Source: Porticoccus hydrocarbonoclasticus MCTG13d (GTDB lineage Bacteria; Pseudomonadota; Gammaproteobacteria; Pseudomonadales; Porticoccaceae). Taken from it: 64,000 bases of DNA. The notes beneath the pieces were generated by a model. That model was not told the origin of the DNA and made no database searches. It saw only the letters and a program-made list of their open reading frames with translations. Where the stretch lies: NCBI RefSeq assembly GCF_000744735.1, contig NZ_JQMM01000001.1, forward strand, positions 1 through 64,000, given 5' to 3'. Made by a program: the position numbers and the translations under genes. Positions 7,725 to 37,690 of this stretch are shown piece after piece; the stretch's first letter is position 1; each line of letters opens with the position of its first letter.

Positions 7725-7856
7725 GACTCAGAACAGTTTGTCACTATTTTGACCCTTATAGGGGCCTCGCGGCCTGTGACTGCTCGGTCCAAACTCCTGA
7801 CGGAGTTTGTCGAACCACGCTTTAACGAACGAGTCCACAACAAATCGCTTACAAAT

Positions 7857-7887: not shown

Positions 7888-7894
7888 ATTTGTT

Positions 7895-7970
7895 TGGTGG
7901 GTCGTGCTGGATTCGAACCAGCGACCAATTGGTTAAAAGCCAACTGCTCTACCAACTGAGCTAACGACCC
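7895..7970 (-). tRNA. tRNA-Lys (anticodon UUU)
   Basis: A 76-nt cloverleaf with the CCA end encoded. The acceptor stem is GGGTCGT/ACGACCC, the D-arm has AGCTCAGTTGGTAGAGC, the anticodon loop CTTTTAA gives UUU, and the T-arm contains GGTTCGAATCC. It lies just downstream of queC on the same strand with its own plausible promoter. Confidence 0.97.
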
Positions 7971-7985
7971 TCAGAAGAGGCGCAT

Positions 7986-8013
7986 ATCTTACTTATGGGG
8001 AGTCAAAAATCAA
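7986..8013 (-). promoter_or_regulatory. Putative sigma70 promoter of tRNA-Lys
   Basis: Read on the minus strand, TTGATT (8013-8008) and TAAGAT (7991-7986) are separated by 16 nt, about 15 nt upstream of the mature tRNA 5' end. A second TTGACT inside the spacer makes the -35 assignment uncertain. Confidence 0.45.
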
Positions 8014-8017
8014 GTGT

Positions 8018-9361: not shown

Positions 9362-9427
9362 GGGAGGTACTGCATGTCATCAATGCCGCAGTTTAACCGA
9401 CATTTGCAAAATCAGGAGGCCATCCGA

Positions 9428-10183: not shown

Positions 10184-10238
10184 GGGGATATCCTCTACCG
10201 ACGGTACGGAAAAACGCTACACTGGAATGGCAATACGC

Positions 10239-10256
10239 CCGGTGTTTGAACACCGG
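10239..10256 (-). promoter_or_regulatory. Hairpin in the pal-cpoB intergenic gap
   Basis: Seven-base-pair arms CCGGTGT/ACACCGG enclose a TTGA (or TCAA) tetraloop. No T-run follows on either strand, so it is not a classical terminator. It may stabilise mRNA or act as an attenuator between pal and cpoB. Confidence 0.35.
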
Positions 10257-10293
10257 ACGTTTGCAAAAAACAGCAACAGCGCCTGGGGCGCGA

Positions 10294-10803
10294 TTACTTC
10301 ATTTCTACGCGACGATTCAACGCCCAAGCAGTTTCATTGCTATCCAGGGAAGCGGGGCTTTCCTCACCATAGCTGATCACTTCCAGCAAATTGCCATTCA
10401 CACCCTCGGAAATCAGGAAATCGCGAACGGCATTGGCGCGACGCTCACCCAGCGCCATGTTGTATTCGCGTGTCCCGCGCTCGTCAGCATGGCCTTCCAG
10501 ACGAACATTGACTGGATTGGCACGCAACCATTCTGCATGGAGACGCAACGCAGCGGTGGCTTCAGCATTGAGAACAGCACGATCAAACTCGAAGTAGAAA
10601 ACCCGCGGCACAGCTGTATCCGTACCCAGTGTCGTGGCAGTAACGCCTTCAGTTGATACTGAACCTGTAGACACTTGACTACTTGGCACCGACGTACCGG
10701 CACTCGCTGTATCAGTTGTATCAGTACCGGTTGAGGAACAGCCCGATAACAGCGCCATCACAACGGTAACCAAAGCGCCGTATTTGAGCAGTTGATTATT
10801 CAT
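10294..10803 (-). CDS. pal: Peptidoglycan-associated lipoprotein
   Basis: An outer-membrane lipoprotein of 169 residues that binds peptidoglycan and TolB. The lipobox LLSGC places the lipidated cysteine at about residue 22. A Ser/Thr-rich linker is followed by an OmpA-like domain with the peptidoglycan-binding signature NVRLEGHADERGTREYNMAL and the C-terminal NRRVEM. Upstream of the ATG, reading leftward, is AGGAG with an 8-nt spacing. It sits between tolB and cpoB in the normal operon order. Confidence 0.97.
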   Translation of the reverse strand: MNNQLLKYGALVTVVMALLSGCSSTGTDTTDTASAGTSVPSSQVSTGSVSTEGVTATTLGTDTAVPRVFYFEFDRAVLNAEATAALRLHAEWLRANPVNVRLEGHADERGTREYNMALGERRANAVRDFLISEGVNGNLLEVISYGEESPASLDSNETAWALNRRVEMK

Positions 10804-10836
10804 TTCTTTCTCCTGTAATTAAATAATGTAGCTTGT

Positions 10837-12123
10837 TTATTTTGGTGACCAGGCAGGCTCTCGGACATCGCCGACAGTTGCTGGCAGTAAAAATTTCACA
10901 CCCGCATCCAGCGAAACAGCTGCCAGTACTCCCTTGCTGCCTTGTTTGGTTGCGTAAATCAACATAGCACCATTCGGGGCAACTGTAGGGGATTCATCCA
11001 GATACGTTTGTGTTAAAACTCTCAGGTCGCCCGTAACCAGGTCCTGTGAAGCGATATGAAAATCGCCTTTATCGCGGTGCACCATAACTAAAGTGCGCCC
11101 ATCAGGAGCAAGTCTTGGTCTGGCATTGTACGACCCTGCGAAGGTTAAGCGTTCTACCTGTCCGCTGGCAATGGTTAACTTATAAATTTGTGGCGCTCCG
11201 CCCCTATCTGAGGTAAAAATCAGTGATTTTCCGTCCGGCGTCCAGTTTGGTTCGGTATCAATCGCAAAATGCGTGGTCATGCGGATAAATTTTCGCGTCA
11301 TCAAATCAAGCGTATAAAGTTCAGGGTTGCCGTCTTTTGATAAGACCAGAGCCAGTTTTCGACCATCGGGTGACCAGGCGGGTGCGCCGTTGAGCCCCCG
11401 GAAATTGGTCAACTGCTCGCGGGCAGCCGTGGCAAGATTTTGACGAAAAATGGCCGGCCGTCCTGTTTCAAAAGAGACGTACACCAACTCCTTTGCATCC
11501 GGGGACCAGGCCGGCGACATGATCGGCTCGTCTGATGCCAACAGCAAACGTTCTCTGGCACCATCCGCATCAGACACCATCAGGCGAAATGACATTTTTC
11601 CGTTCTTGGGAATGGCACTCACGTAGGCAATGCGGGTAGAGAAAGCACCGGGGATACCGGTGATAGTTTCATACACCTGATCGCTGATGTGGTGAGCGAT
11701 ATCTCGCAACTGTGCAGCCTTTCCATCCACCGCCTTGGTAAACAGCTTGCGGCCTCCAGCCACCTCCATAAGGCTGAACGTCACCTTGTAACTGCCCCCC
11801 TGATCAGTCACGTCGCCAACCACCAGGTATTCTGCACCCAGAACCCGCCAGTCACGCAAGTAGACATCATTCTCACGGGCGGGAAATGACAACATGTTTT
11901 GCCGGGGTATCGAATTGAACAGGCCACTGCGATCCAGATCCGCCGAAACGATGTTACTGATATCTTCAGGCAGCGCCCGACCGCCGAGCGTCATCGGTGA
12001 AATGGCGATACGGGTCGGATTGTCAACGCCTTGGGTAATTTCGATGGTGAATTCAGCAAATGCTGACGGCAGCCAGCACGCCATAAACACGCACAAACTT
12101 AGTAGAAACCCGGTTTTCCTCAC
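10837..12123 (-). CDS. tolB: Tol-Pal system beta-propeller protein
   Basis: A periplasmic protein of 428 residues (E. coli 430). It has a signal peptide ending about residue 23 (WLPSAFA), an N-terminal domain with the TolA-box region ([18 protein letters not shown]), and a C-terminal six-bladed propeller seen as repeated [24 protein letters not shown] and EPAWSPK blocks. TolB shuttles between TolA and Pal to relocalise Pal to the division site. It begins 3 nt after the tolA stop. Confidence 0.97.
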
Positions 12124-12126
12124 TGT

Positions 12127-12846
12127 TTATAACCTCAAATCATCTGGTCTGAAAATTAATGGCAATTTACGAAAATAAGTCTCGAACACCTTCGGCGGCA
12201 GTTCCTTTAACTTTTCGAACCGGCCCACTTTAAGCACCGCCTGTACGGCAGAACGATCAAACGCCTCATTACCGCTGGATCTGACAATATCAACACGAAC
12301 TACCTGCCCATTGGGCAACAGTTGCACCAGCAACTCAACCTCCATATCGCGACGGGAATTGAGTGGACGATTCCAGTTGGCGGCCAGACGCTCAAAAATG
12401 TAATCCGCGTAACTGCTGGCCAACTCCTCATCGTTCGCGGCCGCCAAAAATGCCTCTTCCTCGGCCAGGGCACTGGCCAGTGCCTGTTCAAGTTGCTGCT
12501 TATCTATTTGCGGCTTGGGCTCTGGTTGCGGTTCCGGTTTTGGCGCGGGTTTGGGTTCCGGTTTTGGCGCAGGCTTCGGCGCTGGCTTGGGCTTGGGCTT
12601 AGGAGCCGGTTTCGGGGTCGGTTTGGGAGCCGGCTTGGGTGCCGCTTTAGGCACCGGGGGCTTCGGTTTGGGTTTGGCCTTTTCCTCCAGCTTGAGCAAC
12701 GTTGCCTGAACATATTTCGGCTGGGTAATTTTTCGTTGTTTCCTCTCCGGCTCCCAATGCACTACCATCAGCGCCACCATGCAAGCATGCAACAGCAGGC
12801 TCACCAAAACGGCAACGGTAAACGAGGAGACTTTGCCGGAGAACAC
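12127..12846 (-). CDS. tolA: TolA, short form with a Pro-Lys-rich spacer
   Basis: An inner-membrane protein whose single N-terminal helix (FTVAVLVSLLLHACMVALMV) carries the SHLS-like LLLHA element that contacts TolQR. The middle (about residues 50-115) is a Pro/Lys/Ala repeat (PKPAPKP units) in place of the long helical domain II of E. coli. The C-terminal domain (about 140-239) contains YADYIFERLAANWNRP and the TonB-like SGNEAFDRSAVQAVLKV. At 239 residues it is much shorter than E. coli TolA (421). It transmits proton-motive force from TolQR to TolB and Pal. Confidence 0.93.
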   Translation of the reverse strand: MFSGKVSSFTVAVLVSLLLHACMVALMVVHWEPERKQRKITQPKYVQATLLKLEEKAKPKPKPPVPKAAPKPAPKPTPKPAPKPKPKPAPKPAPKPEPKPAPKPEPQPEPKPQIDKQQLEQALASALAEEEAFLAAANDEELASSYADYIFERLAANWNRPLNSRRDMEVELLVQLLPNGQVVRVDIVRSSGNEAFDRSAVQAVLKVGRFEKLKELPPKVFETYFRKLPLIFRPDDLRL

Positions 12847-12851
12847 GGTAG

Positions 12852-13289
12852 CTAGTTTTTCCCTGGCGGCGGCTCGGTGACCAGCCCGACAGAGGGCGCA
12901 CCGGCATTCTGCAACTCACTCATCAACCTGACCACAGTGCCATAATCCACTTTTGCATCACCCCAGACCAGCACGGGCGTCTTCGGCTGCACACCCATCA
13001 CCTTCTGCACTTTTTCAATAATAGAGGTGAGTGGCTCTTCAATATTCTTGCCGTTGCCGAGGTCCAGATAGTAAGTCCCATCGGCTTTCACAGAGACAAT
13101 GAGGGGTTCCAGATCCTTGTCATCAAGCGGTGCGGACGGGGCCTGTGGCAGCTCCACCTTGACCCCCTGCATCAACATGGGGGCTGTCACCATAAAGACA
13201 ATCAACAATACCAGCATCACATCAATGTAGGGCACTACATTGATTTCAGCCACCAGCCGCCTTTTATGTTTAGGAGTTCGGATAGCCAT
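12852..13289 (-). CDS. tolR: Tol-Pal proton channel subunit TolR
   Basis: A protein of 145 residues with one N-terminal membrane helix containing the essential proton-carrying Asp23 (INVVPYIDVMLVLLIVFMV), at exactly the E. coli position. The periplasmic domain follows and ends in a Pro-rich tail. Together with TolQ it forms the ion-driven motor that energises TolA. Its start overlaps the tolQ stop by one base, consistent with coupled translation. Confidence 0.97.
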   Translation of the reverse strand: MAIRTPKHKRRLVAEINVVPYIDVMLVLLIVFMVTAPMLMQGVKVELPQAPSAPLDDKDLEPLIVSVKADGTYYLDLGNGKNIEEPLTSIIEKVQKVMGVQPKTPVLVWGDAKVDYGTVVRLMSELQNAGAPSVGLVTEPPPGKN

Positions 13290-13960
13290 TAACCGTGTAC
13301 CCGACGGTGCAGAATACTGGAAAATTCCTCGGCAAAGGTTTGATAACCGCTGTAGATACTATCCGCCGACGCTGAATAGCGATTGTAGGCCAGCACCGCC
13401 GGAATCGCGGCAAACAGGCCCATGGCGGTGGCAATCAAGGCTTCAGAGATACCCGGCGCAACCGTAGCCAGGGTGGCCTGCTGTACCGTTGCCAGTCCGC
13501 GAAAGGAGTTCATGATCCCCCAGACGGTGCCAAACAAACCGATGTAGGGACTCACCGACGCAACGCTGGCCAGAAAGGGTAAATTCCGATTGAGTCGCTC
13601 CTCCTCCCGGGACAGGGCAATTCGCATGGATCGCTCAGTGCCTTCGATGACCGTATCCGCATCAACATTAGCCTGCTGGGCCAGGCGGTTGAACTCGCGG
13701 AAGCCCGCACGGAATACACTCGCCAAGCCCTCGGCGGCACCTCTGCCACCAATATCCGTATAGAGCTGATTAAGGTCTACTCCGGACCAGAAGTTATCCT
13801 CGAATTTGCGCAGATTGATCCCCGCATTTCTCAGGTATAGCCCCCGTTGGATGATCATTACCCAGGAGACGATCGAAGCAAAAAATAACAGTGCCATGAC
13901 AAATTGCACGAGCAGGGAAGCATCGGCAATCAGACTCCAGAGTGATAATTGTTCGGTCAC
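13289..13960 (-). CDS. tolQ: Tol-Pal proton channel subunit TolQ
   Basis: An inner-membrane protein of 223 residues, homologous to ExbB and MotA, with three membrane spans: about 15-38 (LLVQFVMALLFFASIVSWVMI), around 125-150 and around 165-190. The conserved segments PYIGLFGTVWGIMNSF and EALIATAMGLFAAIPAVLAYN line the proton path. It starts 21 nt after ybgC on the same strand and heads the tolQRAB part of the operon. Confidence 0.97.
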   Translation of the reverse strand: MTEQLSLWSLIADASLLVQFVMALLFFASIVSWVMIIQRGLYLRNAGINLRKFEDNFWSGVDLNQLYTDIGGRGAAEGLASVFRAGFREFNRLAQQANVDADTVIEGTERSMRIALSREEERLNRNLPFLASVASVSPYIGLFGTVWGIMNSFRGLATVQQATLATVAPGISEALIATAMGLFAAIPAVLAYNRYSASADSIYSGYQTFAEEFSSILHRRVHG

Positions 13961-13981
13961 CAGGTAACTCCTGTTTTCTTG

Positions 13982-14383
13982 TTAAATAGCGGCTTGCAAT
14001 GTTTGCAACATCTCGGCCGGGATGGCCGTGGGTCGCTTCGTTTGATGATTGATGCAGGCCGCTTTCACGACCCCTTCGACCAGAACCTGCTCATCCCTCA
14101 GCACTTTTTGGGCGATGGTGAATGAAGTTCTGCTCACGGCGACCAGTTTTGCCGTGGCAATTACCTGGTCATCCAATACTGCCGGTTGCCGGTACTTCAA
14201 TTCCACCGAACAGACCACAAACTGCATGCCCTCAAACAGCGCCGGCTTGTCATAACCCAACGACCGCATCAGCTCAGTGCGGGCGCGCTCAAGGTACTTC
14301 AGATAATTGGCGTAGTAGACAATCCCGCCCGCGTCGGTGTCTTCCACATACACACGGATCGGTAGACAATATTCGCTGGTCAT
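13982..14383 (-). CDS. ybgC: Acyl-CoA thioesterase of the Tol-Pal operon
   Basis: A hotdog-fold 4-hydroxybenzoyl-CoA thioesterase-like protein of 133 residues. The active-site region [20 protein letters not shown] contains the catalytic Asp and the HxxY-equivalent pocket of YbgC. Substrates in relatives are short-chain or malonyl acyl-CoA. Its start overlaps the ruvB stop in an ATGA arrangement, so ruvCAB and ybgC-tol are probably read as one unit. Confidence 0.94.
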
Positions 14384-15417
14384 TTCTCCATGAAATCCAG
14401 TTGTTGGTCAATTTTTTGTGGACTTTTCAGACCGAAGTGCTGGTAGGCAAGGTTTGTAACCATTCGACCCCGAGTGGTTCTCATCAAGTATCCCTGCTGG
14501 ATCAGAAACGGTTCCAGTACGTCCTCGATCGTTCCCCGCTCTTCGCTGATCGCGGCGGCCAGACTGTCCACCCCCACAGGTCCCCCATCAAACTTCTGCA
14601 TGATGGTTAACATCAGCCGTCGATCCATATGATCAAAACCATTGGCATCCACATTGAGCATATTCAATGCCTGATCGGCCACCTCCGCACTGATCTTTCC
14701 ATCTGCCTTGATCTCGGCATAGTCCCTGACCCGACGCAACAGGCGATTGGCTATTCTGGGTGTACCCCTCGCTCGGCGGGCAATCTCCATAGCGCCCTGT
14801 TGTCCCATGGCCACACCGAGAATATCCGCAGAGCGCGCGACAATCGTGCTCAACTCATCCACTGAGTAAAACTCGAGGCGCTGTACGATACCAAAACGAT
14901 CGCGCAACGGCGACGTGAGTAACCCCGCCCGGGTCGTTGCACCAACAAGGGTAAAGGGTGGCAAGTCCAGCTTGATGGAACGTGCAGCAGGCCCTTCACC
15001 GATCATGATATCCAGCTGGTAGTCTTCCATAGCTGGATAGATAACCTCTTCCACCACGGGACTCAGACGATGAATCTCGTCAATGAACAACACGTCCCCC
15101 GGCTCCAGGTTGGTCATCAGAGCCGCCAGATCACCAGCTTTCTCCAGCACCGGGCCAGAGGTGGTTTTCAGATCCACACCCATCTCATTGGCAATGATAT
15201 GGGCCAGCGTGGTCTTGCCCAGACCCGGGGGGCCAAATACCAGCGTGTGGTCCAGTGGTTCACCGCGCCTGCGTGCGGCACCGATAAATATTTCCATCTG
15301 CTCACGAACCGCCTGCTGCCCGACGTAGTCGGCCAGACTCAGAGGACGAATCGCACGATCAAAGCGCTCCTCCTGGACGGAAGCTTCTGGGGAGATAAGA
15401 CGATCATTCTCAATCAT
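14380..15417 (-). CDS. ruvB: Holliday junction branch migration ATPase RuvB
   Basis: A hexameric AAA+ motor of 345 residues. Walker A is [13 protein letters not shown] at about residues 66-78, Walker B is [12 protein letters not shown], and sensor 1 follows in the LVGATTRAG block. The C-terminal winged-helix domain ends [15 protein letters not shown], which contacts DNA. It works with RuvA to drive branch migration and lies downstream of ruvC and ruvA, 23 nt after the ruvA stop. Confidence 0.98.
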
Positions 15418-28728: not shown

Positions 28729-28815
28729 GCCAGAGTGGTGAAATTGGTAGACACAGGGGATTCAAAATCCCCCGCCCTTAAAAGCGTGCCGGTTCGAGTC
28801 CGGCCTCTGGTACCA
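28729..28815 (+). tRNA. tRNA-Leu (anticodon CAA), integration target
   Basis: An 87-nt class II tRNA. The acceptor stem is GCCAGAG/CTCTGGT, the D-arm has TGGTGAAATTGGTAGACA, the anticodon stem GGGGA/TCCCC encloses TTCAAAA (anticodon CAA), a long variable arm follows, the T-arm has GGTTCGAGTCC, and CCA is encoded. From the anticodon loop onward it is duplicated at 37080-37137, which marks it as the attachment site of the island to its right. Confidence 0.97.
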
Positions 28816-28817
28816 CT
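28760..28817 (+). repeat. attL: 58-bp direct repeat in the tRNA-Leu 3' half
   Basis: Perfectly identical to 37080-37137. It covers the anticodon loop to the CCA end of tRNA-Leu plus two bases. Integration regenerates a functional tRNA, as is usual for tRNA-targeting tyrosine recombinases. Confidence 0.93.
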
Positions 28818-29349
28818 TAAAAATCAATAGGTTGAAAAAACCCAGCAGCGCATTCACCACAGCCACACTTTTTAAAAGTAGACATATAGTAGACGGCTAT
28901 GCATCCTGCCCATCCTAGGCGCCATTACCAGCACCAACTTCTTTAAAATCCCTTGGAGAGTAATTTTCTTTCTGGTTCACCCCGGCTTGGGCACCATTAT
29001 GCCAAGTAGTTATACTGCCTTTTCCTACATTCGGAAACGGAGCAGGTTACCTTTTTTTATCTGGGAGAGAGGCGGGGGTTGCCTGGGCCTCTTTCTGCAG
29101 CACCGTGGGCAGGTAATCGCGCCACAATTATTGCTGATACTATATCTATGCGAACAACGTCGGGATGGATGGGATAAAGTCGCTGGACATACGAGATCTT
29201 TACACGCGCTCAATATGCCGTGAATGTATACAGCTTAACGAGAGGTTACCAGCTCCAATGCACGGTTTATACTCAACCGATGCTCACTTACTACCCAGAC
29301 TGCTACCCGAAATCTACTATACACGCGACACAACTGAGCGAGACGTTAA
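28816..29349. other. Left end of the element, non-coding
   Basis: No convincing gene is visible. Contents are the paired GTAGAC arm-type repeats at 28878-28894, a 44-bp segment (29243-29286) about 80 percent identical to 37273-37316 beyond the right end, and a GCTTAAC...GTTAAAT bracket (29233-29351) reminiscent of an integron attC site, though weakly so. Small open frames here have no ribosome-binding sites worth calling. Confidence 0.5.
28878..28894 (+). repeat. Left paired GTAGAC repeats (putative integrase arm sites)
   Basis: GTAGAC occurs twice with an 11-bp period. The same pair with the same period is found at 36944-36960 next to the integrase. Repeats of this sort at both ends of an integrated element are typical of arm-type binding sites; this assignment is inferred. 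Confidence 0.5.
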
Positions 29350-29829
29350 ATGGAAAAGATCTGGTTATCAATTAGAAGGAACATACTATCAATAGCATTG
29401 AGCTTGTTTTCGATTAACTTGAATGCAGAGACGATTCCAGACATAACTAAAGGAAACTTTGATTTCCTTCTATCTAGTAATAAGTGTGTTTCCGTAACAG
29501 CATTGACCGAGCCTGACGAACGAGCCATAAGTGTTAATGAAAACATAGATATTGATTTATTTTGCAGCAGAAATAACAATTCCTATAAATGTGCAGAATA
29601 TATAGATTTTGATGACGAGTCACACAGAAATCAACTCGATTTCAAAATAACAGCAGACTCCCCACCGTATTTGCATTTAGTGCATGAAGCGTCGTTTTCA
29701 ATTATATACGTGAATTTAAATACTAGAGGTGCTGTCTACGAAAGAAGGAACACTTTAACAAAGGGGCTCGTTACCATTACCTGTAATTCCTTACATGCAA
29801 CTAAGCATGAGCTAGACAATGCTGAATAA
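29350..29829 (+). CDS. Small secreted protein of unknown function
   Basis: A 159-residue AT-rich gene. An N-terminal signal peptide (MEKIWLSIRRNILSIALSLF, cleaved near residue 26 after LNA) predicts export. The mature part has four cysteines (about residues 48, 71, 80 and 146), enough for two disulfides, and a beta-rich pattern. No family is recognised. It is the first cargo gene of the tRNA-Leu element. The start codon overlaps a GTTAAAT motif discussed under findings, and only a weak GAG lies upstream. It could be an outer-membrane-associated exclusion factor or an unrelated passenger. Confidence 0.6.
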   Translation: MEKIWLSIRRNILSIALSLFSINLNAETIPDITKGNFDFLLSSNKCVSVTALTEPDERAISVNENIDIDLFCSRNNNSYKCAEYIDFDDESHRNQLDFKITADSPPYLHLVHEASFSIIYVNLNTRGAVYERRNTLTKGLVTITCNSLHATKHELDNAE

Positions 29830-29935
29830 GACGCCACATAAAAATAAAAAGCATGCAACAAGTTTCCCCAAGTTCACCCAAACCGAAAAAGGCTGAGCTT
29901 TCGCGAGACATCCTACACTCAAAAAAGCTCGAATC

Positions 29936-30862
29936 ATGAAAGAAAGTAATGCTCCAAAATTTTGCTCTTCATGCGGCGAATCACTTCACCCACTGCCTTA
30001 CTTGCACGTAGAGCGTAAATGCAACGAATGCGAAAAGGCTATTTTCGTAAGGGAGGCAGGCGAAAACAGGCAGGGAACCACCATACCTTTTAGTATTTCG
30101 TTGAAGCCAAAGGCCAACACCCATTTGCACAAGCCAGGTGTCAATTGGCTGGTGCAACAGTTTTTTCTCGATGGCGCCCCCAAGACCCACCGAGATCTAA
30201 ATGACTTGTTCGATCGCTATGAAGATGTAGCCGAAAAAAAACTGATGCGAAGCGAAAAGCTATCAAGCTTAAATCTAAATCTAGATAGAGAAGCTGATGC
30301 GGAAACCATCTATAAGATTCTAGAAAAGGACAAAAGCGCTTGGGAGTGGTGGGCTTACCAAACTGGAATATATTCCTCCATTGGGCGAAATTCTGTTAGG
30401 GATGGCGAATTAGAAAAAGCAGCTTATGCATGCTTCATGGCTGGTAAATGTCATTCAATGCTGGTCTTCGTAGCAGAGCTTGAAGACCTTGTCTGGAAAG
30501 GGTACTTAGCAGAGAAGGTCGTATATAACGCAGCAGCGGCAGCTGCTGGATCACCTGCGGAAGTAGAGGCAATAGAAAGATTACATCCTTTGTTTGAGAA
30601 GCTGAGCAATGCCGTCCTATACGCGTGGGCGAATAGCGAAGACCCTATTGGGCCAAAAATTGGTTTTAATGATTTGTCTGAATCAATTATAAAAGCTCTC
30701 GCACAGTTCCATATGGCTTCCAGGGAGCGAAAGAGAGAGGAGGAAAAGACCAACCGAGCTTATACAAGAACTATCCATGATATGCGTATTCGGTGGTTCG
30801 GAACCGGTGTTGCAGTATTAGGTGGCTTGATAGGGGCCGCAAAAGCTCTGGGATGGCTGTGA
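29936..30862 (+). CDS. Zinc-ribbon protein with a C-terminal membrane helix
   Basis: A 308-residue protein. Cys10/Cys13 and Cys29/Cys32 (FCSSCGES and KCNECEK) form an N-terminal zinc ribbon. A long alpha-helical middle follows (about 85-280, with YNAAAAAAGSPAEVEAIERL). The last ~20 residues (GTGVAVLGGLIGAAKALGWL) are a glycine-rich hydrophobic helix that could insert in a membrane. No enzymatic motif is seen and I do not recognise a family. It sits between the secreted protein and the R-M pair in the element. The tail-anchored layout with a sensor-like ribbon resembles the architecture of some abortive-infection proteins, but that is a guess. Confidence 0.65.
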   Translation: MKESNAPKFCSSCGESLHPLPYLHVERKCNECEKAIFVREAGENRQGTTIPFSISLKPKANTHLHKPGVNWLVQQFFLDGAPKTHRDLNDLFDRYEDVAEKKLMRSEKLSSLNLNLDREADAETIYKILEKDKSAWEWWAYQTGIYSSIGRNSVRDGELEKAAYACFMAGKCHSMLVFVAELEDLVWKGYLAEKVVYNAAAAAAGSPAEVEAIERLHPLFEKLSNAVLYAWANSEDPIGPKIGFNDLSESIIKALAQFHMASRERKREEEKTNRAYTRTIHDMRIRWFGTGVAVLGGLIGAAKALGWL

Positions 30863-30964
30863 TTTGCTCTTCGCCTGACAATCCTTTCAAGTCAGCCATT
30901 CGGCCGGGAGGTTCTGCTTATCTGCGCGCTCCTTGATGTGTGGCGTTACCACTCAATGCAACGG

Positions 30965-30980
30965 CTGTTTATATATACAG
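30965..30980 (+). promoter_or_regulatory. LexA-type SOS box upstream of the R-M pair
   Basis: CTGTTTATATATACAG matches CTGT-N8-ACAG and differs by one base from the strong E. coli consensus core. It ends 20 nt before the methyltransferase start. The same consensus is found upstream of ruvCAB in this window, so the host LexA probably recognises it. Confidence 0.65.
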
Positions 30981-31000
30981 TATAAGTATGGTTTGCTAAT

Positions 31001-31993
31001 ATGAATAGAACCATATCTCAGAAGGCGAAAAATGTGTCAAATTTATCATGTATAGAAATCTGTGCCGGAGCTGGCGGGCAAGCTTTGGGGCTTGAAAACG
31101 CCGGTTTTGATGCGCAAGCACTTGTTGAAATCGATGGTCACTGCTGTGGAACCTTGCGCTATAATCGCCCTAACTGGAACGTCATTGAAGATGATGTAAA
31201 GAACTTCAGCGGCAAACCTTTCGAAGGTGTTGATCTGTTGGCAGGTGGTGTGCCATGCCCCCCTTTCTCAAAAGCTGGCAAGCAGCTGGGTAAAAATGAT
31301 GAGCGTGATTTATTTCCTGAGGCATTACGGCTGGTAGATGAGATCCGCCCCAATGCCGTGATGCTGGAAAATGTGCGCGGCTTCCTTGATGCTGTTTTTG
31401 AAGACTATCGCTTAAAGCTAAAACGTAAATTACAACGTATGGGTTATGTGGTGGACTGGCGATTACTCAATGCTTCAGATTTTGGTGTGTCTCAATTGCG
31501 CCCCCGTGTGGTGATCGTAGCCATTAAGAAAGAGCTCGCTGAACACTTCCAATGGTGTTCACCGCTTGATCATAACCCACCTAGCGTTGGTGAGCTGTTA
31601 TTAGACAAAATGAAAGAGAACAAGTGGCGTGGCGCAAACAAGTGGGCGAAACAAGCGGATGATATTGCACCAACAATTGTTGGTGGCTCTAAAAAACATG
31701 GCGGCCCAGATTTAGGTCCAACAAGAGCAAAACTAGCTTGGGCTTCATTAGGTGTGAATGGAATGACGATCGCCGATGAAGCCCCACAAAGAGACTTTGT
31801 AGGCATGCCGCGTCTGACTGTTGAAATGGTGGCTCGAATTCAAGGTTTCCCCGACGATTGGAAATTTTTAGGGCGCAAAACCCCAGCCTATAGACAAGTT
31901 GGTAATGCATTTCCCCCACCAGTTGCAGAAGCCCTGGCAAAGCAAATTCAAAACTGTTTAACAGCCAAGAAAATTTTCTCAGTTGCCGTATAG
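31001..31993 (+). CDS. DNA (cytosine-5) methyltransferase of a Type II R-M system
   Basis: A 330-residue m5C methyltransferase. Motif I is EICAGAGGQALGLE (about 19-32), motif IV PCPPFS has the catalytic Cys86, motif VI is ENVRG at 123-127, motif VIII is SQLRPRVVIVA, and motif X is RQVGNAFPPPVAEALA. The target recognition region between VIII and IX is short (about 65 residues) and contains GGSKKHGGPDLGPTRA. The recognition sequence cannot be read from this. It is followed 12 nt later by an HNH nuclease, so together they form a restriction-modification pair. A LexA box precedes it. Confidence 0.93.
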   Translation: MNRTISQKAKNVSNLSCIEICAGAGGQALGLENAGFDAQALVEIDGHCCGTLRYNRPNWNVIEDDVKNFSGKPFEGVDLLAGGVPCPPFSKAGKQLGKNDERDLFPEALRLVDEIRPNAVMLENVRGFLDAVFEDYRLKLKRKLQRMGYVVDWRLLNASDFGVSQLRPRVVIVAIKKELAEHFQWCSPLDHNPPSVGELLLDKMKENKWRGANKWAKQADDIAPTIVGGSKKHGGPDLGPTRAKLAWASLGVNGMTIADEAPQRDFVGMPRLTVEMVARIQGFPDDWKFLGRKTPAYRQVGNAFPPPVAEALAKQIQNCLTAKKIFSVAV

Positions 31994-32005
31994 GAACAAT
32001 AAAAG

Positions 32006-32596
32006 ATGACAAAAAAGAGGGGGGCACGCGTAAAACTAAGAGAGCATTTCTTAGCTAATGTGGGGCGTATTATGGATTCTGATGAACTCAGAAAAGTTTC
32101 AGGGGATATCAGTGAGTGGGCGCGTAGAGTACGAGAATTACGCACTGAGGAAGGCTACCTGATTCTTACCCACAATGATCGCAGTGAATTAAAGCCGGGC
32201 CAATATCTGCTAGAAAACCCTAAACCTGAACCAGCATTTGAACGCGGAATTTCTAAGGAAACCCGCGCCTATGTTCTTGACCGTAACGGTTTTACCTGTC
32301 AAATGTGTGGAGCTGTAGCTGGTGAACCACACCCCTATGACCCAACAAGAAATACACGCCTTCACATTGGTCATATTGTTGATAAATCTCAAGGTGGTGA
32401 TGACGACCCAAGCAATTTAAGGGCGCTTTGTTCAATATGCAATGAAGGTGCATCTAATTTAACCCTTGAACGGCCCTCAGTTCAAAAATTAATGATTCAA
32501 GTAAGACGCGCTAAAGGCGGAGATCAAGTCGAGTTACTCAAGTGGTTAATAGATAAGTTCCCTAAAAAAGCGAAAGATTTTTTTGATTCTCATTAA
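32006..32596 (+). CDS. HNH restriction endonuclease
   Basis: A 196-residue nuclease. The N-terminal part (about 10-75) looks like a winged helix (SEWARRVRELRTEEGYLILT). It is followed by an HNH domain with structural zinc cysteines 98, 101, 142 and 145 (CQMCG, CSIC), the catalytic His123 in LHIGHIVD, and Asn137 in NLRALC. Adjacent to and co-directional with the cytosine methyltransferase, it is most simply its cognate restriction enzyme. No frameshift or missing residue is seen, so the pair looks active. It converges on the rep gene. Confidence 0.87.
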   Translation: MTKKRGARVKLREHFLANVGRIMDSDELRKVSGDISEWARRVRELRTEEGYLILTHNDRSELKPGQYLLENPKPEPAFERGISKETRAYVLDRNGFTCQMCGAVAGEPHPYDPTRNTRLHIGHIVDKSQGGDDDPSNLRALCSICNEGASNLTLERPSVQKLMIQVRRAKGGDQVELLKWLIDKFPKKAKDFFDSH

Positions 32597-32702
32597 CATA
32601 TAATAACGCAAGAATTCAGATAAACCCTCGACGTGCTTTTTTTCCAAATTTTACGAGCATCGAGTCGTTGCACCAGCTTATTTTCAAGTTCCCTGCGTAC
32701 AG

Positions 32703-34268
32703 TTATTGACAGAACTCCAAGGCAAGCGCCGGTGGCGCTTGTGCTTCCAAACACCCCCCAATACTATTGATTGACGAACCTTTGCGTCGAATAGTCCATT
32801 CAGGTTTGGGGTATGAGATGGCTTTTGGCTGGTCGTGCGACCATAATCCAAAAACTTTTTTTATGGTGTCGCCGTACTGGCCGAGCTTTTCCTTGACTAG
32901 ATAAGCCAATTGCAAAGGGCGACGCAGTCTCTTGCAGACCGCGCCTCCCATCTTTGCTGTGAAATGGCTCCAATCTCCTTTGTCTGCGGCCTCGATGATT
33001 TCCATGACTTCTGGCGTAGGCGCTCCGGTGAGAATATCGAGGTTTCTGGCTGTTTTTCGGCATTCCCGGTAAACAGTGACCGGTGGGCCCCCAATTTGCT
33101 GAAATTGACGAATGTTCCAGATCGAAGACCATGCGCGCACACGCAGTGCTGTGATCGCGCTATGGTCTTCCCCCTCGTCATCCGCATCCAGTCCGTGACC
33201 ATCAATATTTTTGGAAATGTATTTGGCCAGATAGGCGGTAGCCCGTCCCTTTCTGGGATCAATCACCTCAGCCTTAAAACGGTGCTTACGAGCGCCAGGT
33301 TCGTGGCCATCTTCGGCCATGATGAAACGCCTTAGGATGTCGGTTAATGCCTTGCGCCGTGCTTTGGGCACAAAAAAGAGCATGTGCCAGTGAGGGGTGC
33401 CGTCACGGTGCGGCTCGGCGACTCGAAACCCGTATAAGGGGACTCCTGCCCTTATAAGGGCAGCCCGGGTTTTCTGCCATTGCCCGTTAAACCATGCCTG
33501 AGCTTCGACAGGGGTAGCACCGTTGTATTTGGAGTTTGCTTTTCCCTTAGTGATTGCATGGTATTTGCTGGGACAGGTCCAGGTGTAAAACATCGCTACC
33601 CACGCAGCTTCGGAGTTCTGCTCCGCATAATTTTCAAAACCGTCTAAGCGGACCATCAGTTCATTGCGCTTGTTTACTGGGTTGGAAATACCCAGGTCAG
33701 CTAATTCCGCTAGATTGTATGATTGACCAAAATCATTTTCGGCTTCCATGTCTTCCAAAAGTCGCCGATTTCTCCGATCTTTGGCTAACCAGGATTTGAA
33801 ACCCCAGTCGGAAACATAAGAGGCAACACCTCTGCGTGTGAATCCCAGCTCCCGGTTAAGTTGTTCAACCCTTTGTGCTGCTACATTTCGTAGTTGTCTA
33901 CGCCAGAACTTTGCGCAACTTATACGCGGAATATCTGTGTTCGAGGGAAGGGAGAATCCGTATCGTTCTTCAAAGGTGGCAATCATGCGTTTGATGTCGA
34001 ATGAGCTGTTTATGGCTGCCCGGCAATAGCGCTTTGCAAAGCTCTCTGCCAAGTCGCGAATTTCCTGGTCATCAGCGGCAAAGTGAAAGTCCTCCACCCA
34101 TAGGCGATCGACAACATGGCGTACCCGTGTATTGGCATCCCTTAAAGGGGTGCCCTTGGCAAGTTCCCGGGTATGCCAACACTTTAGCTTTGGGCCAAAG
34201 GTGCGAGCCCGGGTTAGCAGCTTCGATAGCCACACTTCATTCTCTTTAAGGACAAAGGAAGTCGTCAT
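32703..34268 (-). CDS. HUH replication endonuclease (phage P2 gpA-like)
   Basis: A 521-residue rolling-circle initiator. The HUH motif PHWHM puts the metal ligands at His293 and His295. The paired catalytic tyrosines are Tyr346 and Tyr350 in AYLAKYISKNIDG, the two-tyrosine YxxxY arrangement of P2 gene A proteins. The N-terminal half is basic and probably binds DNA. Such proteins nick one strand at the origin and start single-strand synthesis. It is last in the alpA operon, overlapping the preceding gene by 4 nt. A perfect hairpin sits in its last 40 nt. It implies that the element replicates after excision. Confidence 0.87.
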   Translation of the reverse strand: MTTSFVLKENEVWLSKLLTRARTFGPKLKCWHTRELAKGTPLRDANTRVRHVVDRLWVEDFHFAADDQEIRDLAESFAKRYCRAAINSSFDIKRMIATFEERYGFSLPSNTDIPRISCAKFWRRQLRNVAAQRVEQLNRELGFTRRGVASYVSDWGFKSWLAKDRRNRRLLEDMEAENDFGQSYNLAELADLGISNPVNKRNELMVRLDGFENYAEQNSEAAWVAMFYTWTCPSKYHAITKGKANSKYNGATPVEAQAWFNGQWQKTRAALIRAGVPLYGFRVAEPHRDGTPHWHMLFFVPKARRKALTDILRRFIMAEDGHEPGARKHRFKAEVIDPRKGRATAYLAKYISKNIDGHGLDADDEGEDHSAITALRVRAWSSIWNIRQFQQIGGPPVTVYRECRKTARNLDILTGAPTPEVMEIIEAADKGDWSHFTAKMGGAVCKRLRRPLQLAYLVKEKLGQYGDTIKKVFGLWSHDQPKAISYPKPEWTIRRKGSSINSIGGCLEAQAPPALALEFCQ

Positions 34269-34651
34269 GATGACACCTCCCGTTTCCCGGGTTTTTTCGG
34301 GTTATTACCGGGTTTCGTACCGGGTTGCTCGGGTAAATTGCTTGGACTTTTACGGACTGATTCTCCGGATTTTCCGGGTAATGAACCTCGGGCTTCTGGT
34401 CCGGCTGATGTTGGTTTTAGCAAAAGCTTCATCAGTTCAAAAAATAGCCAATCTTCAACGATTGGTTCCAGAGTGATATCCAATAATAGGTGGTCACCAG
34501 GCCAAGCGTGATGAATATACGTGTTAGGAATAACACCACAGATAGCGAGGCGTTGAATTATCGGCTCAGCGGTGATTTGGTTTCTGTAGGAACATTCACT
34601 TTGTTCCTTAAAAGATTCGATGTATTCAAATAGTTCGAAAAGGCTTTTCAT
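34265..34651 (-). CDS. Small protein between AlpA and Rep, unknown function
   Basis: 128 residues. The first ~85 are folded-looking (FELFEYIESFKEQSECSYRN and VEDWLFFELMKLLLK). The last ~45 are a basic Pro/Gly/Lys tail (PGKSGESVRKSPSNLPEQPG) that is probably disordered. The overlaps on both sides (4 nt with alpA, 4 nt with rep) show a single translationally coupled operon. The 3' end of the gene carries the regularly spaced CGGGT series described in the findings. No family recognised; a Rep accessory role would fit its position. Confidence 0.7.
   Translation of the reverse strand: MKSLFELFEYIESFKEQSECSYRNQITAEPIIQRLAICGVIPNTYIHHAWPGDHLLLDITLEPIVEDWLFFELMKLLLKPTSAGPEARGSLPGKSGESVRKSPSNLPEQPGTKPGNNPKKPGKREVSS
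34288..34334. repeat. Five phased CGGGT repeats upstream of rep (iteron-like)
   Basis: CGGGT occurs at 34288, 34298, 34309, 34321 and 34330, spaced 9-12 bp and averaging about one helical turn, just upstream of the leftward rep start. They also encode the Pro-rich tail of the small gene. Iterons or an origin are suggested by position only. Confidence 0.4.
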
Positions 34652-34854
34652 GCTGCGTCCTCCTGGCTGGTGGAGAAACGAAGCTGTTGCTGGATAAAGT
34701 TGTCCAGATCACCCAATCGATAACGGATTGAGCGGGTCCCTAATCGGATAAAGGGAATTCTCGCTCCGGCCCATCTGTCTCGTTCCAGAAAGGCTGCGCT
34801 TACGCCCAGATAATTAGCTGCTTGTTTTGTATTAAGTAAAGTTTGCATTTTCAA
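34648..34854 (-). CDS. AlpA-family helix-turn-helix regulator / excisionase
   Basis: A 68-residue MerR-like winged-HTH protein. NTKQAANYLGVSAAFLERDR is the helix-turn-helix, and FIRLGTRSIRYRLGDLDNFI is the wing and family tail. AlpA proteins activate or direct excision of satellites and islands such as P4-like elements. Start support is strong: AGGAG lies 7 nt upstream. That SD sits inside a 6-bp inverted repeat (CTCCTG/CAGGAG, 34856-34878) that could mask it. First gene of the alpA-small gene-rep operon. Confidence 0.88.
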   Translation of the reverse strand: MKMQTLLNTKQAANYLGVSAAFLERDRWAGARIPFIRLGTRSIRYRLGDLDNFIQQQLRFSTSQEDAA

Positions 34855-34855
34855 T

Positions 34856-34878
34856 CTCCTGCATATGGTTGACAGGAG
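34856..34878 (-). promoter_or_regulatory. Hairpin that can sequester the alpA ribosome-binding site
   Basis: CTCCTG and CAGGAG form 6-bp arms with an 11-nt loop. The CAGGAG copy that serves as the alpA Shine-Dalgarno in the transcript is one of the two arms, so folding would lower alpA translation. Confidence 0.35.
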
Positions 34879-34919
34879 TGAAAATTAGAGGAGATATGGC
34901 GTGGGAAATAGAACTAGTA

Positions 34920-34944
34920 CGCGCACTCGTACTACGAGTGCGCG
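34920..34944. promoter_or_regulatory. 25-bp perfect palindrome between the alpA operon and the integrase operon
   Basis: Twelve-base arms CGCGCACTCGTA and TACGAGTGCGCG flank a single C. No T-run follows on either strand, so it is not a standard terminator. It lies 66 bp upstream of the alpA start and 11 bp past the stop of the 254-aa gene. Operator or replication-origin function is the most likely reading. Confidence 0.65.
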
Positions 34945-34955
34945 CATCCGTAGTA

Positions 34956-35720
34956 TTAGCCTCTTAGGTGCCTTCGAAGGGCGTCAGTGAGTTGTCTAAC
35001 CGCATGATCGGAACTTGTGTATAGCCTTTTTTCTTGGTCGGTCAGGCTGGAATAGAACCGTCTGGCGCTCTCTCTCTTGCTCCATTGATCTTTATTTTTC
35101 TTATGGAAACTGAAAAATTGATTGTGTAAATCAGTGTGTTTTGAGTGTGCCTTAGCTGCTGCAGTGCGTTTTTCTTGGCGGTTTTGGATGACTTCTAATT
35201 CAGAATCGAAGTACAGAAGTTGCTCATACATCAACCTAATATTTTCAGATATAGCGTCGAGGACTTTCAATCTTTCTTCTACTGGAGTGGCCTTCTTGGT
35301 TAGCATTTTTTCCTGTGCGCTCAAGGCGATAATCAGGGAAAAAATGGCTGAGGCAAAAACAGCCTTTGGTGCCTCGTTATCTTCTAGGTCAAGAGCAAGT
35401 GTTTGGAGAGGATGATTTTGTGGAAGTAGCGCATCGACTGTTTGTAGGTATTCCTCTGTATTTTTTTGATCTCGGAACAACTGAGACATTGGTTGTACTT
35501 TTGAAACCATTTCTCGGATTTGGTCAGAATTAACGGTTTCTGTGGGGATGTCTGAGGCCAATAATGTTATGAATGCATTCGTGTATTTAAAGAAATCCTC
35601 TTTCGAGCAATTTTCCAGATTTTTTCGAGCCAGCTCTAAGGCTTTTTCGCATAAGCCGCGAGAGTAGCTGGGTAATATGATGTCAAGTTGATCCTCCCCT
35701 GGGTCGATATGGTTAATCAC
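34956..35720 (-). CDS. Integrase-partner protein of unknown function
   Basis: 254 residues, almost entirely alpha-helical by composition. A small hydrophobic stretch (PKAVFASAIFSLIIALSAQE) occurs mid-protein, and the basic C-terminal segment (about 190-254, HKKNKDQWSKRESARRFYSS and an RRHLRG end) may bind DNA. The start overlaps the integrase stop by 8 nt, so the two are cotranslated. No family is recognised. Co-occurrence with the integrase suggests a role in recombination directionality or regulation. Confidence 0.7.
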   Translation of the reverse strand: MINHIDPGEDQLDIILPSYSRGLCEKALELARKNLENCSKEDFFKYTNAFITLLASDIPTETVNSDQIREMVSKVQPMSQLFRDQKNTEEYLQTVDALLPQNHPLQTLALDLEDNEAPKAVFASAIFSLIIALSAQEKMLTKKATPVEERLKVLDAISENIRLMYEQLLYFDSELEVIQNRQEKRTAAAKAHSKHTDLHNQFFSFHKKNKDQWSKRESARRFYSSLTDQEKRLYTSSDHAVRQLTDALRRHLRG

Positions 35721-36912
35721 TTAATATGCGTCCTTGTATAAAGTTTGTGATTCTTTGCATAGGTTCGCGTAATCGCTCTGTACTGGGAACAATATACCCC
35801 GCCGTTACATCATTTGAAAACTTGTGGTTCAAGAGCCTTTTGAGGGCATAAGCCGGGATGTCCAGGCTTTCGGCTATGGTAATAAAAGTCCGCCGTAGAT
35901 CATGGAGAGTAAATACAATGCCAGAGTGTTCCGAAATGCGCCCTAGCGCGGTACGGGGTTCCTTTAGAGGCCCATCGGCTAGGGGTGAGGGGAATACCCA
36001 TATTTTTTCTGTCTGTCTGTAACGACGGATTAACATATCTTCCAAATAATCTGACATTGGCAGACGGTGTGGCTCTTTGTTCTTTGTCTCTGGAATAAGA
36101 AAGGTACGCTCATGAAAATCTACATCATTCCAGGTCATCCGGCTGGCCTCCGACCTTCGCAATCCAGTGAACAGGAGAAAATGCAGATAATCCCGCGTTG
36201 TCTCCTGGTTCAACCGCAACGTAGCCTCATACCAGGGTTTTAGTTGGGTCGGGGTTAGCAATGTTTGTCGCCGCCTTACCTCGTACCAGGCGCGGTTCTT
36301 GCTCAAGCGATTGACCGGGTTTACTGGGATCACCGGTTTGCCGGTTTGATCCTCGTACTGCTCTATGGCGAAATTAAACAGTGCACGCAGCACCCGCATG
36401 GTGTTGTTGGCGCGGGCATGGCTGGTTTCGCCCAGTTTTCGGTGCCTCCTCTCCACCATGTCCTTGCTAATTTCAGCTAAAGACTTATCTAGCCAGTCCC
36501 CCAAGGAAATTTCAATACAGCGCTTATAGTCATGGAGCGTATTGGGCTTCAGGTTCTTGCGTCCTTGCAAATAGTCTTGGTAGGTCTGGCGTAGCGTGAC
36601 CGCCCTAGCCCGCCGCTCTCGTTTGTCAGCCAAGGGGTCTTTGTCCTGGGCAATATCCCCCAATAATACCCGGGCCTGCTTACGGGCTTGCTCTACCGTC
36701 AGCGCCCCGTGCTTGCCCAAAGTAATGCGCTTTGGCCTACCTTGAACCCGAGCCTCCACGATATAAACCTTAGAACCGGCATTGGTCACCTTCAAACCAA
36801 ACCCTGTCAGGTCCGTATCACGGTAAAATACCTGGGCCGGTTTCCCTGTCACGGAAGGCTCAGGGGGTTCTAGGCTATCAATGGCTCTTTTGGTCAATTT
36901 AAGGTGCGGCAT
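35713..36912 (-). CDS. Tyrosine recombinase (island integrase, DUF4102 type)
   Basis: A 399-residue integrase. The N-terminal DUF4102 fold (GFGLKVTNAGSKVYIVEARV) and SAM-like core-binding domain (about 105-190) are followed by the catalytic domain with Arg252 (TGLRRSEASR), His337 and Arg340 (HDLRRT), His363 (LLNHK) and nucleophile Tyr373 (AGYIVP). All five catalytic residues are present. It lies at the right end, 168 bp from attR, reading inward, as in other tRNA islands. Arm-like GTAGAC and ATATAACTG repeats occupy the gap. Confidence 0.95.
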   Translation of the reverse strand: MPHLKLTKRAIDSLEPPEPSVTGKPAQVFYRDTDLTGFGLKVTNAGSKVYIVEARVQGRPKRITLGKHGALTVEQARKQARVLLGDIAQDKDPLADKRERRARAVTLRQTYQDYLQGRKNLKPNTLHDYKRCIEISLGDWLDKSLAEISKDMVERRHRKLGETSHARANNTMRVLRALFNFAIEQYEDQTGKPVIPVNPVNRLSKNRAWYEVRRRQTLLTPTQLKPWYEATLRLNQETTRDYLHFLLFTGLRRSEASRMTWNDVDFHERTFLIPETKNKEPHRLPMSDYLEDMLIRRYRQTEKIWVFPSPLADGPLKEPRTALGRISEHSGIVFTLHDLRRTFITIAESLDIPAYALKRLLNHKFSNDVTAGYIVPSTERLREPMQRITNFIQGRILSD

Positions 36913-36943
36913 TGCGTTATCCCAGCGTTATTTGTGTCCATTA

Positions 36944-36960
36944 GTAGACGCATAGTAGAC
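36944..36960 (+). repeat. Right paired GTAGAC repeats (putative integrase arm sites)
   Basis: Same hexamer and same 11-bp period as at 28878-28894. The neighbouring direct repeats ATATAACTG at 37017-37025 and 37028-37036 also have an 11-bp period. Confidence 0.5.
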
Positions 36961-37079
36961 ACATTATTTCAAAAACTGGGGTATATAGGCAATAATCCGC
37001 AAGGAAGAAAAGGCACATATAACTGATATATAACTGTATTTAAAAGAGTTTCAAAAAACAAAGAAGATAGACACAAATA

Positions 37080-37137
37080 ATTCAAAATCCCCCGCCCTTA
37101 AAAGCGTGCCGGTTCGAGTCCGGCCTCTGGTACCACT
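37080..37137 (+). repeat. attR: 58-bp direct repeat of the tRNA-Leu 3' half
   Basis: Perfect copy of 28760-28817 that lacks the tRNA 5' half, so it cannot form a tRNA. It marks the right border of the element. The chromosome resumes after it, with about 25 nt that still resemble the sequence following the left copy. Confidence 0.93.
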
Positions 37138-37690
37138 CAAAAATCAATGGGTTAAAATACCTCAGCCCTGCTTTAATCCCGCCGAAGATTCCCCATACCT
37201 ACAAAAAACCCTCTTATATACTCAAGGGTAGATATTTCAGCATCCGCAGCTGACCCAAGGCAATATATCGCAAGGTTGCCAAATCCAACGCTCGGCTTAT
37301 ACTCGAGCGACGCTCATGATCCAGACAGTTACCCAGAAAACAATCACAAAAACAGCCAGTTGGTGCCAATTTTACTCGGTCATTACGTCGAACGTGGCGT
37401 CGGTGAACTCGACCTCGAAAAACTGCCGCAGTTGATCGAGCTGAAATATCACAGCATCCGCGATGTGGTAAACGAACTGGGCGAGGTAAAAAATATTCGG
37501 GATGTGTTTGTGGGATTTCAACGGGATTTATACTGATAACGATTTTTCTCGACCCTTTTTGGGCTGACAAGGCACTCGTTTGTGCCGCACAGCTTCAGCA
37601 TTGCGCGGACCCGGATGATAAAGAATCGCTATGCGGTGTTTCACAGTAAAGTTGACACCGAGATCAAGTTATTGAAACGGAGACCGCGCA
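37138..37690. other. Degenerate right flank of the element
   Basis: No intact gene. A truncated hsdR tail lies at 37360-37536 and the diverged 44-bp copy of left-end sequence at 37273-37316. These look like the remains of an earlier insertion at the same tRNA. Confidence 0.55.
37360..37536 (+). pseudogene. hsdR: C-terminal fragment of a Type I restriction subunit (HsdR, EcoEI type)
   Basis: The translated fragment reads LVPILLGHYVERGVGELDLE, then LPQLIELKYHSIRDVVNELG and IRDVFVGFQRDLY before a stop. It aligns with the extreme C-terminus of EcoEI-type HsdR proteins (the ELD-EKL, LKYHSI-DA and FxGFQxxLY signatures). The helicase and nuclease parts, hsdM and hsdS are missing, so it is a remnant. 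It suggests that an R-M-bearing island occupied the tRNA-Leu site before. Confidence 0.72.

Follow-up and report, generated by a model that had tools for sequence, protein, structure and literature searches.

The stretch of DNA analysed here, which we call the window, comprises positions 1 to 64,000 of contig NZ_JQMM01000001.1 of Porticoccus hydrocarbonoclasticus MCTG13d, a probably marine bacterium, and contains an element of about 8.3 kb that is integrated into a tRNA-Leu gene. We hold with moderate confidence that this is an integrative, rolling-circle-replicating and non-self-transmissible element, most likely spreading as a phage satellite that resembles the phage-inducible chromosomal minimalist islands (PICMI) described from Vibrionaceae (PMC10803314). 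An earlier note, made from the sequence alone, had described an intact tRNA-Leu integrative element of this size with satellite-like gene logic; the former claim is borne out by what follows and the latter is supported. The source genome is a single contig of 2.47 Mb, and the G+C content of the element is 0.46, compared to 0.54 in the remaining window.

The element is bounded by a repeat whose two copies, 8,320 bp apart from start to start, are identical at 58/58 bases, a match far beyond chance. The left copy is the 3' portion of a complete tRNA-Leu(CAA) gene. The earlier note had recognised this 58-bp repeat as perfect but had placed its left end one position off. The ends of the element are organised as follows:

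28729..28815, plus strand: host tRNA-Leu(CAA), the integration target, intact (ARAGORN; empty site in G010)
28760..28817, plus strand: left attachment site (attL), 58-bp exact repeat, tRNA side (repeat comparison)
37080..37137, plus strand: right attachment site (attR), 58-bp exact repeat (repeat comparison)
28877..28894, no strand assigned: candidate arm sites of the integrase on the left side, two AGTAGAC boxes with a spacing of 11 bp (motif search)
36943..36960, no strand assigned: candidate arm sites of the integrase on the right side, two AGTAGAC boxes with a spacing of 11 bp (motif search)

In a congener (G010) the site is cleanly empty: both flanks adjoin without an insert, and 402/442 bases are identical to the joined flanks of the window. 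Since the repeat lies in tRNA-Leu and the site in G010 is uninterrupted, the element has integrated into tRNA-Leu; with its attachment repeats and an empty site it belongs to the tRNA-targeting integrative elements. When the 17 genomes of the genus, including its own, were searched, the left flank was matched in 17/17 and the right flank in 6/17. The tRNA-Leu site looks like a hotspot for islands in the genus. Pairs similar to the AGTAGAC boxes are found at both ends of three related loci (L073, L075 and L076) and at one end only of two others (L047 and L074), while the strict pattern is found in neither L055 nor L048.

Leftward from the right end, the element encodes an integrase (399 aa), a 254-aa protein, an AlpA-like protein (68 aa), a 128-aa protein and Rep (521 aa). 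Rightward from the tRNA follow open reading frames (ORFs) of 159 and 308 aa, a C5 methyltransferase and an HNH nuclease. The integrase gene occupies the right end and is oriented towards the interior, as the earlier note had stated, and Pfam and PADLOC matches also confirm the integrase, the AlpA regulator and the restriction-modification-type cargo that it had listed. The backbone consists of:

35713..36912, minus strand: tyrosine integrase (Int; PF00589), 399 aa (Pfam; alignment)
34956..35720, minus strand: 254-aa gene, GTG start as called, at the position of iolg in PICMI, overlapping int by 8 nt
34648..34854, minus strand: AlpA-like HTH_17/excisionase-type protein, 68 aa as called (Pfam)
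34265..34651, minus strand: 128-aa gene between alpA and rep, at the position of up1 in PICMI (ORF list)
32703..34268, minus strand: HUH Rep, 521 aa (Phage_GPA PF05840, 4e-80; phrog_91, 5e-156)
32695..32722, minus strand: putative double-strand origin core, overlapping the rep stop codon (1/28 mismatch to a consensus common to P2-like and PM2-like phages)
32723..32741, minus strand: predicted hairpin with 8-bp stem and 3-nt loop, adjoining the origin core (fold prediction)

Residues R252, H337, R340, H363 and Y373, which we take to be the catalytic residues of the integrase, are invariant in 10 aligned integrases (those of eight elements, the window's included, and of L058 and L077). Rep has HxH at 293-295 and YxxxY at 346-350, and these H and Y residues are invariant in 8/8 element Reps. 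A dead integrase or Rep, which the earlier note had regarded as fatal to its proposal, is therefore not visible: both proteins keep their catalytic residues and the element looks intact. The structure model of the 254-aa protein is poor, with a mean predicted local distance difference test score (pLDDT) of 57.

Capsid, large terminase and relaxase families are absent from the matches listed for the nine main ORFs (Pfam, E<=1; PHROGs, E<=0.1, for the HNH protein the best 25 of 34), in line with the earlier note, which had seen no capsid, terminase or conjugation genes. Nor were packaging or helper-interaction genes recognised in these ORFs by Pfam, PHROGs or PADLOC. Weak PHROGs cross-matches connect the methyltransferase with a 'DNA primase' family (0.0049) and the HNH protein with a 'terminase small subunit' family (0.0017). 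Because the element has no recognised means of its own to leave the cell, it probably travels in a phage.

The 3' end of rep holds CCTTGGAGTTCTGTCAATAACTGTACGC (32695-32722, minus strand), an origin-like motif that the earlier note had overlooked and that is the sole match with <=7 mismatches in the window. The 56-base fold is modestly better than that of shuffled sequences (z -1.5; 16/200 shuffles as good). At 53/54 loci of our Rep tree the motif is found in or near rep with 0-7 mismatches, compared to 8-12 for the best of 15 shuffles per locus; the exception is L048, whose rep frame stops at contig base 138 and whose origin region lies outside the available sequence. Mismatches number 0-3 of 28 in 7/7 elements with the rep 3' end available, 2 in the P2-like phage PSP3, 2 and 6 in PM2-like prophages of two genomes (G029 and G056), and 7 in each of the weak matches L027, PM2, Cr39582 and L056. 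We read the motif as the putative Rep nick site, because it matches PSP3 and what we take to be the origin of P2. PM2 itself counts against this reading, or at best weakly for it, since cleavage is marked in its record at a position (2253/2254) different from that of the motif and since the 7 mismatches of the motif there compare with a shuffled best of 8. By sequence only, the HUH motif, the two tyrosines and the hairpin-nick origin are those of a two-tyrosine HUH rolling-circle replicon, and we infer that the element excises and replicates.

HUH enzymes can also be relaxases, and many islands that have none use the origin of transfer (oriT) of a helper. Together with a weak match of Rep to RepSA of pSAM2 (0.003), this would fit a mobilisable island, with a conjugative element in the same cell transferring the circle via an oriT mimic or with Rep as the relaxase. 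We nevertheless consider such a route unlikely: the nine ORFs match no relaxase family in Pfam, as an integrative mobilisable element would (no search for an oriT was made), the phrog_91 match marks Rep as a phage-type protein, and the nick-like site is located as at phage Rep genes.

The earlier note had proposed, as a test set beforehand, that the unit should recur with variable cargo. This is what we found, in eight genomes and with different cargo in each of the seven elements whose cargo is available (that of G021 lies outside the available sequence). Searching 144 relatives with Rep gave 9 genomes with a match, its own included, and an integrase profile (E<=1e-90) gave 12 among 390 genomes of the order, again including its own. 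Int, AlpA and a GPA Rep occur together in the window, G012, G047 and G021, which were found by Rep, and in G291, G310, G293 and G434, which were found by Int (53-55% identical). In the integrase search, 5/5 genomes with an Int above 50% identity, its own included, have a GPA Rep, and 0/7 of the others (Int 40-45%) have one within the stretch examined. One of the latter, L077, is a 5.45-kb element at tRNA-Thr that combines AlpA with a G2P-type HUH Rep. A pattern-limited Rep scan of a species-genome collection returned 27 loci, 1 of which (NORP89) has Int and AlpA of the element kind.

The arrangement of the eight elements varies in detail. The gene after int overlaps int by 4-14 nt in 5/8 of them (as called, 8 nt in the window and 13, 14, 14 and 4 nt in L055, L047, L048 and L075), it abuts int in L073 and L076, and L074 has only a 62-aa frame. 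A small gene between alpA and rep is called in 7/8, the exception being L073. The five elements with both ends seen measure 8,320, 9,392, 8,823, 7,723 and 6,929 bp. A tRNA-Leu(TAA) was detected at the repeat in G047 and G434, and on the expected side, with no repeat found, in G291; the repeats of G012 and G293 resemble tRNA-Leu 3' sequence, with no complete tRNA found by ARAGORN in the stretch examined.

A single origin of the element Reps is rejected, which indicates that Rep was acquired more than once on one integrase/AlpA chassis. The integrases of the eight elements are compatible with one clade, with weak support (71/80), whereas in the Rep tree (54 rows) their Reps are found in separate places. 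One clade (99/93) holds the Reps of the window, G012, G047 and G021 and has those of G029 and G056 as its sister (100/98 for all six). The Reps of G293 and G434 cluster with that of a P2-like Pseudomaricurvus prophage (100/96), and those of G291 and G310 are placed elsewhere. An approximately unbiased (AU) test rejects one origin with p=0.0036 for all eight rows and p=0.014 for the six without G291 and G310, the groups having been tested after the tree was inspected. The Reps on this chassis come from at least two, probably three, sources. Even between the window and G012, identity differs from gene to gene, with 98% for AlpA, 70% for the 128-aa gene, 91% for Rep and only 74% for Int. The place of the 254-aa gene, which finds no counterpart in G012 by blast, is occupied there by a gene of 262 aa.

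G029 and G056 belong to the host's own family, and we take their loci for PM2-like prophages because PM2-like P9 ATPase and capsid genes lie near the Reps. They hold the closest Reps outside the elements, along with a related origin motif. The Reps of PM2 itself and of Cr39582 fall into the other half of the tree with 19/20 P2-like Reps, which argues against a simple corticoviral origin. The P2-type two-tyrosine Rep of the earlier note therefore stands as a two-tyrosine HUH protein, but it is not simply of P2 type. With P2-like phages (gpA) it shares the Phage_GPA family at about 42% identity and the origin motif; it differs in length (521 aa versus 708 aa in PSP3) and in its part of the tree.

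The sister position of the prophage Reps could be explained if the element were what remains of a prophage, PM2-like or P2-like, after the loss of capsid genes. PM2-like prophages have a capsid and the P9 ATPase, whereas the element has neither and is built on a different chassis: the double-jelly-roll capsid and the P9 ATPase of Corticoviridae have no PHROGs match in the nine ORFs and no tblastn match in seven related loci, and the same searches gave no P2 structural gene. The capsid-less layout recurs and the genes look intact, and the element Reps do not form one clade while the integrases are compatible with one. Because of the recurrence and the intact motifs we reject this explanation, which we regard as highly improbable.

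The earlier note had seen no match of the layout to those of P4, PICI or PLE. The layout does match a described family in gene order, that of PICMI. According to the available part of the PICMI report, int, alpA and prim are co-located and mandatory in the authors' model, and iolg, a gene overlapping int, is found in 21/35 PICMI subfamilies (PMC10803314). As described there, PICMI resemble the element in size (6-9 kb) and in having no recognised capsid-remodelling or packaging genes, and PICMI115 has the same order of int, gene after int, alpA, small gene, replication gene, cargo and host target; the 8-nt overlap with int in the window corresponds to that of iolg. This likeness is one of described layout and not of compared protein sequences. 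The same part of the report places a primase where the element has an HUH Rep with its own origin, and fis with 17-bp repeats where the element uses tRNA-Leu(CAA) with 58-bp att repeats; the hosts are Vibrionaceae, whereas Porticoccus is placed in Cellvibrionales by NCBI, and no helper of the element is known. Int and alpA are present in the element, and no primase family is found in the nine ORFs beyond the 0.0049 cross-match. Since two tested hallmarks, the primase and the fis site, fail, we do not file the element as a PICMI.

P4-like satellites and phage-inducible chromosomal islands typically have a primase-type replication gene and packaging or capsid-interference genes. The element shares their tRNA-type target, Int and AlpA, but beyond the two weak cross-matches its nine ORFs include no primase, terminase or capsid-size gene. 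In Pseudomonas, AlpA/tyrosine-integrase islands inserted at tmRNA (I55 and its relatives, which a jumbo phage transduces) likewise combine Int, AlpA and defence cargo and have no genes for autonomous transfer, and Inovirus Gp2-like proteins are mentioned among them; as far as the accessible text describes them, they differ in being larger (three share about 18 kb), in their tmRNA target and in the core genes RadC and YqaJ (PMC12595487). Charybdis elements (PMC12324425) and AH14b (PMC4936722) were also considered and, going by the available parts of these sources, do not match the element.

In the satellite cycle that we propose, an infecting helper phage would switch on AlpA, which would act as the excisionase with Int, probably also with the 254-aa protein, so that recombination of attL with attR frees a circle of 8.3 kb. 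Rep would nick the origin, made up of hairpin and nick site, where the rep gene ends, and would drive rolling-circle replication of the P2/PM2 type. Packaged in helper particles, the product would then reach another cell and be inserted into the tRNA-Leu there by Int, and between helper visits the cargo would protect host and element. These roles, including the control of the element by AlpA, are proposed from position and family, as in PICMI, with the HUH Rep and its origin standing where PICMI has the primase. A minimal phage-satellite architecture would thereby extend beyond the Vibrionaceae, with a replication gene that is exchangeable on one integrase/AlpA chassis and one origin motif common to tailed and tailless phages. 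An exchangeable Rep makes it directly testable whether satellites take the replicator of their helper.

Several observations weigh against a phage satellite. P2-type rolling-circle replication yields monomer circles. PICMI115, in contrast, forms concatemers, and PICMI are induced by a virulent helper and packaged in that form (PMC10803314). We identified neither a helper nor a packaging site in the element: the host genome has no match to the phrog_2 terminase, which matched PSP3 gpP as the large subunit and 11/14 genomes in a control, and no PM2-type capsid in a profile search. Searches of IMG/VR with Int, the 254-aa protein, AlpA and Rep, one of them covering the best 80 matches, gave no close copy of the element among the matches listed, with a best Rep identity of 45%. 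None of 137 distinct Rep loci from this database (0/137) has an AlpA match, while 112 have P2-like and 5 PM2-like structural matches and 11 have an Int match at 1e-4. The two nearest Int contigs (L058 and L193; 52%) have no GPA Rep match; each has an AlpA-like gene, as read by eye. A further contig, L059, has an AlpA-like protein (42%) and no Rep match.

PM2-like phages are candidate helpers, for which the searches made brought up no described satellite; among the titles and abstract openings listed, none describes a satellite of a corticovirus. A more specific version of the satellite reading, which we think quite doubtful, is that the window lineage is a satellite of these tailless, membrane-containing phages, with a Rep and origin of helper type, and is packaged as a circle (<10 kb) in capsids that take about 10 kb. 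This capsid class is an assumption based on PM2, given that the tailless prophages of marine Vibrio measure 12.1-15.1 kb (PMC11630473). A single Cr39582 capsid query matched 1/144 relatives, the element genome G021, and a five-row profile matched 5/144, with only G021 among the four element genomes there; this co-occurrence is no evidence, since it is expected by chance in about 13% of cases. Across the 390 genomes of the order, assuming that this draw and that of the integrase search are the same set, the profile matched 19 genomes and 0/5 element genomes. Capsid counts hence do not mark PM2-like phages as helpers, co-occurrence being no better than chance. The P2 capsid (PF05125) is found in 2/144 relatives, both from outside the family of the host. 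A GPA Rep is lacking from the PM2-like prophage of G021 (L206), in which the gene at the corresponding position matches phrog_38601, of unknown function. A blastn search for shared packaging sequence in L049, L050, L052, L206, PM2 and Cr39582 matched only rep and the origin. In a wider reading, the tRNA-Leu Int/AlpA chassis might acquire new replicators from whatever small phages are present locally.

The cargo of the window comprises four ORFs:

29350..29829, plus strand: 159-aa ORF without family match
29936..30862, plus strand: 308-aa ORF with a weak zinc-ribbon match only and without PADLOC match
31001..31993, plus strand: C5 cytosine DNA methyltransferase (Pfam 1e-70; PADLOC DruM/MTase_II 8.9e-148)
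32006..32596, plus strand: HNH nuclease, putative restriction counterpart to the methyltransferase (Pfam 1.4e-9; PADLOC REase_II 4.5e-9)

The last two are probably a restriction-modification pair. Recognised defence-type genes occur in 3/6 elements with PADLOC-scanned cargo. G012 encodes a type IIG enzyme (1519 bits) and AbiEii (1.7e-68), and G310 a reverse transcriptase (RT_VI, 5e-66). Two G047 proteins, with HetE-N and PIN-TPR domains in the cargo of this element, and one tested protein each of G291 and G434 have no PADLOC match. The G293 cargo, read by eye only, contains toxin-antitoxin-like genes. Cargo of this sort, the tRNA-Leu hotspot with other islands in relatives and the lack of a recognised packaging or helper-interaction gene would also suit a defence island without a dedicated vehicle, which excises, replicates and moves by natural transformation or generalised transduction. 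We think this somewhat unlikely, as Int, AlpA and Rep in eight elements and the origin in the seven where it is visible suggest selection for regulated amplification. As a separate observation, the HNH protein (32006-32596) has a sub-threshold match to an IscB model (3.8e-13; 49 bits versus a cut-off of 175).

Traces of other islands surround the tRNA-Leu site. In the window, 29243-29286 at the left end of the element and 37273-37316 in the right host flank are 80% similar over 44 bp, and this flank, judged by eye and against L094, resembles the terminal part of a type I restriction gene, apparently a trace of an older island. L094 itself (G012:C29:74000-90000) contains, at 7090-7309 and at the same tRNA-Leu(CAA) locus, a relic of a rep 3' end with the origin (1 mismatch) that adjoins type I restriction-like ORFs; a sibling element probably once resided there. 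In G005 (C2:28315-76799) the sequences matching the left and right flanks of this tRNA-Leu are about 48 kb apart.

Related arrangements were also seen elsewhere. L021 of Microbulbifer agarilyticus (6339-14888) has int, two genes, alpA, a small gene and a GPA Rep with the hairpin origin (1 mismatch), followed by 220-aa and 859-aa ORFs; its integrase is distant (24%), and the architecture may have arisen more than once. At five loci (L022, L026, L042, L045 and L051) a GPA Rep accompanies another kind of integrase (about 365-440 aa), with neither an AlpA match nor one of P2 or PM2 type; these may represent a second class of small integrative elements that replicate by rolling circle. In L053 (G142:C8; 5689-6795 and 9074-10996), a GPA Rep lies near a protein that we take to be Zot-like, with the origin motif at 5 mismatches; this is possibly a filamentous phage with the same replicator and origin motif. 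Finally, a second island with a tRNA-Leu-type repeat lies beside the elements of G012 and G293. The two copies (L055:118-2954 and L075:5994-8830), which come from different bacterial families, share 97.6% identity over 2,837 bp, and in L075 ORFs follow that we read by eye as ACR3-like permease and MerA-, MerP- and MerR-like proteins, apparently the recent transfer of a metal-resistance island.

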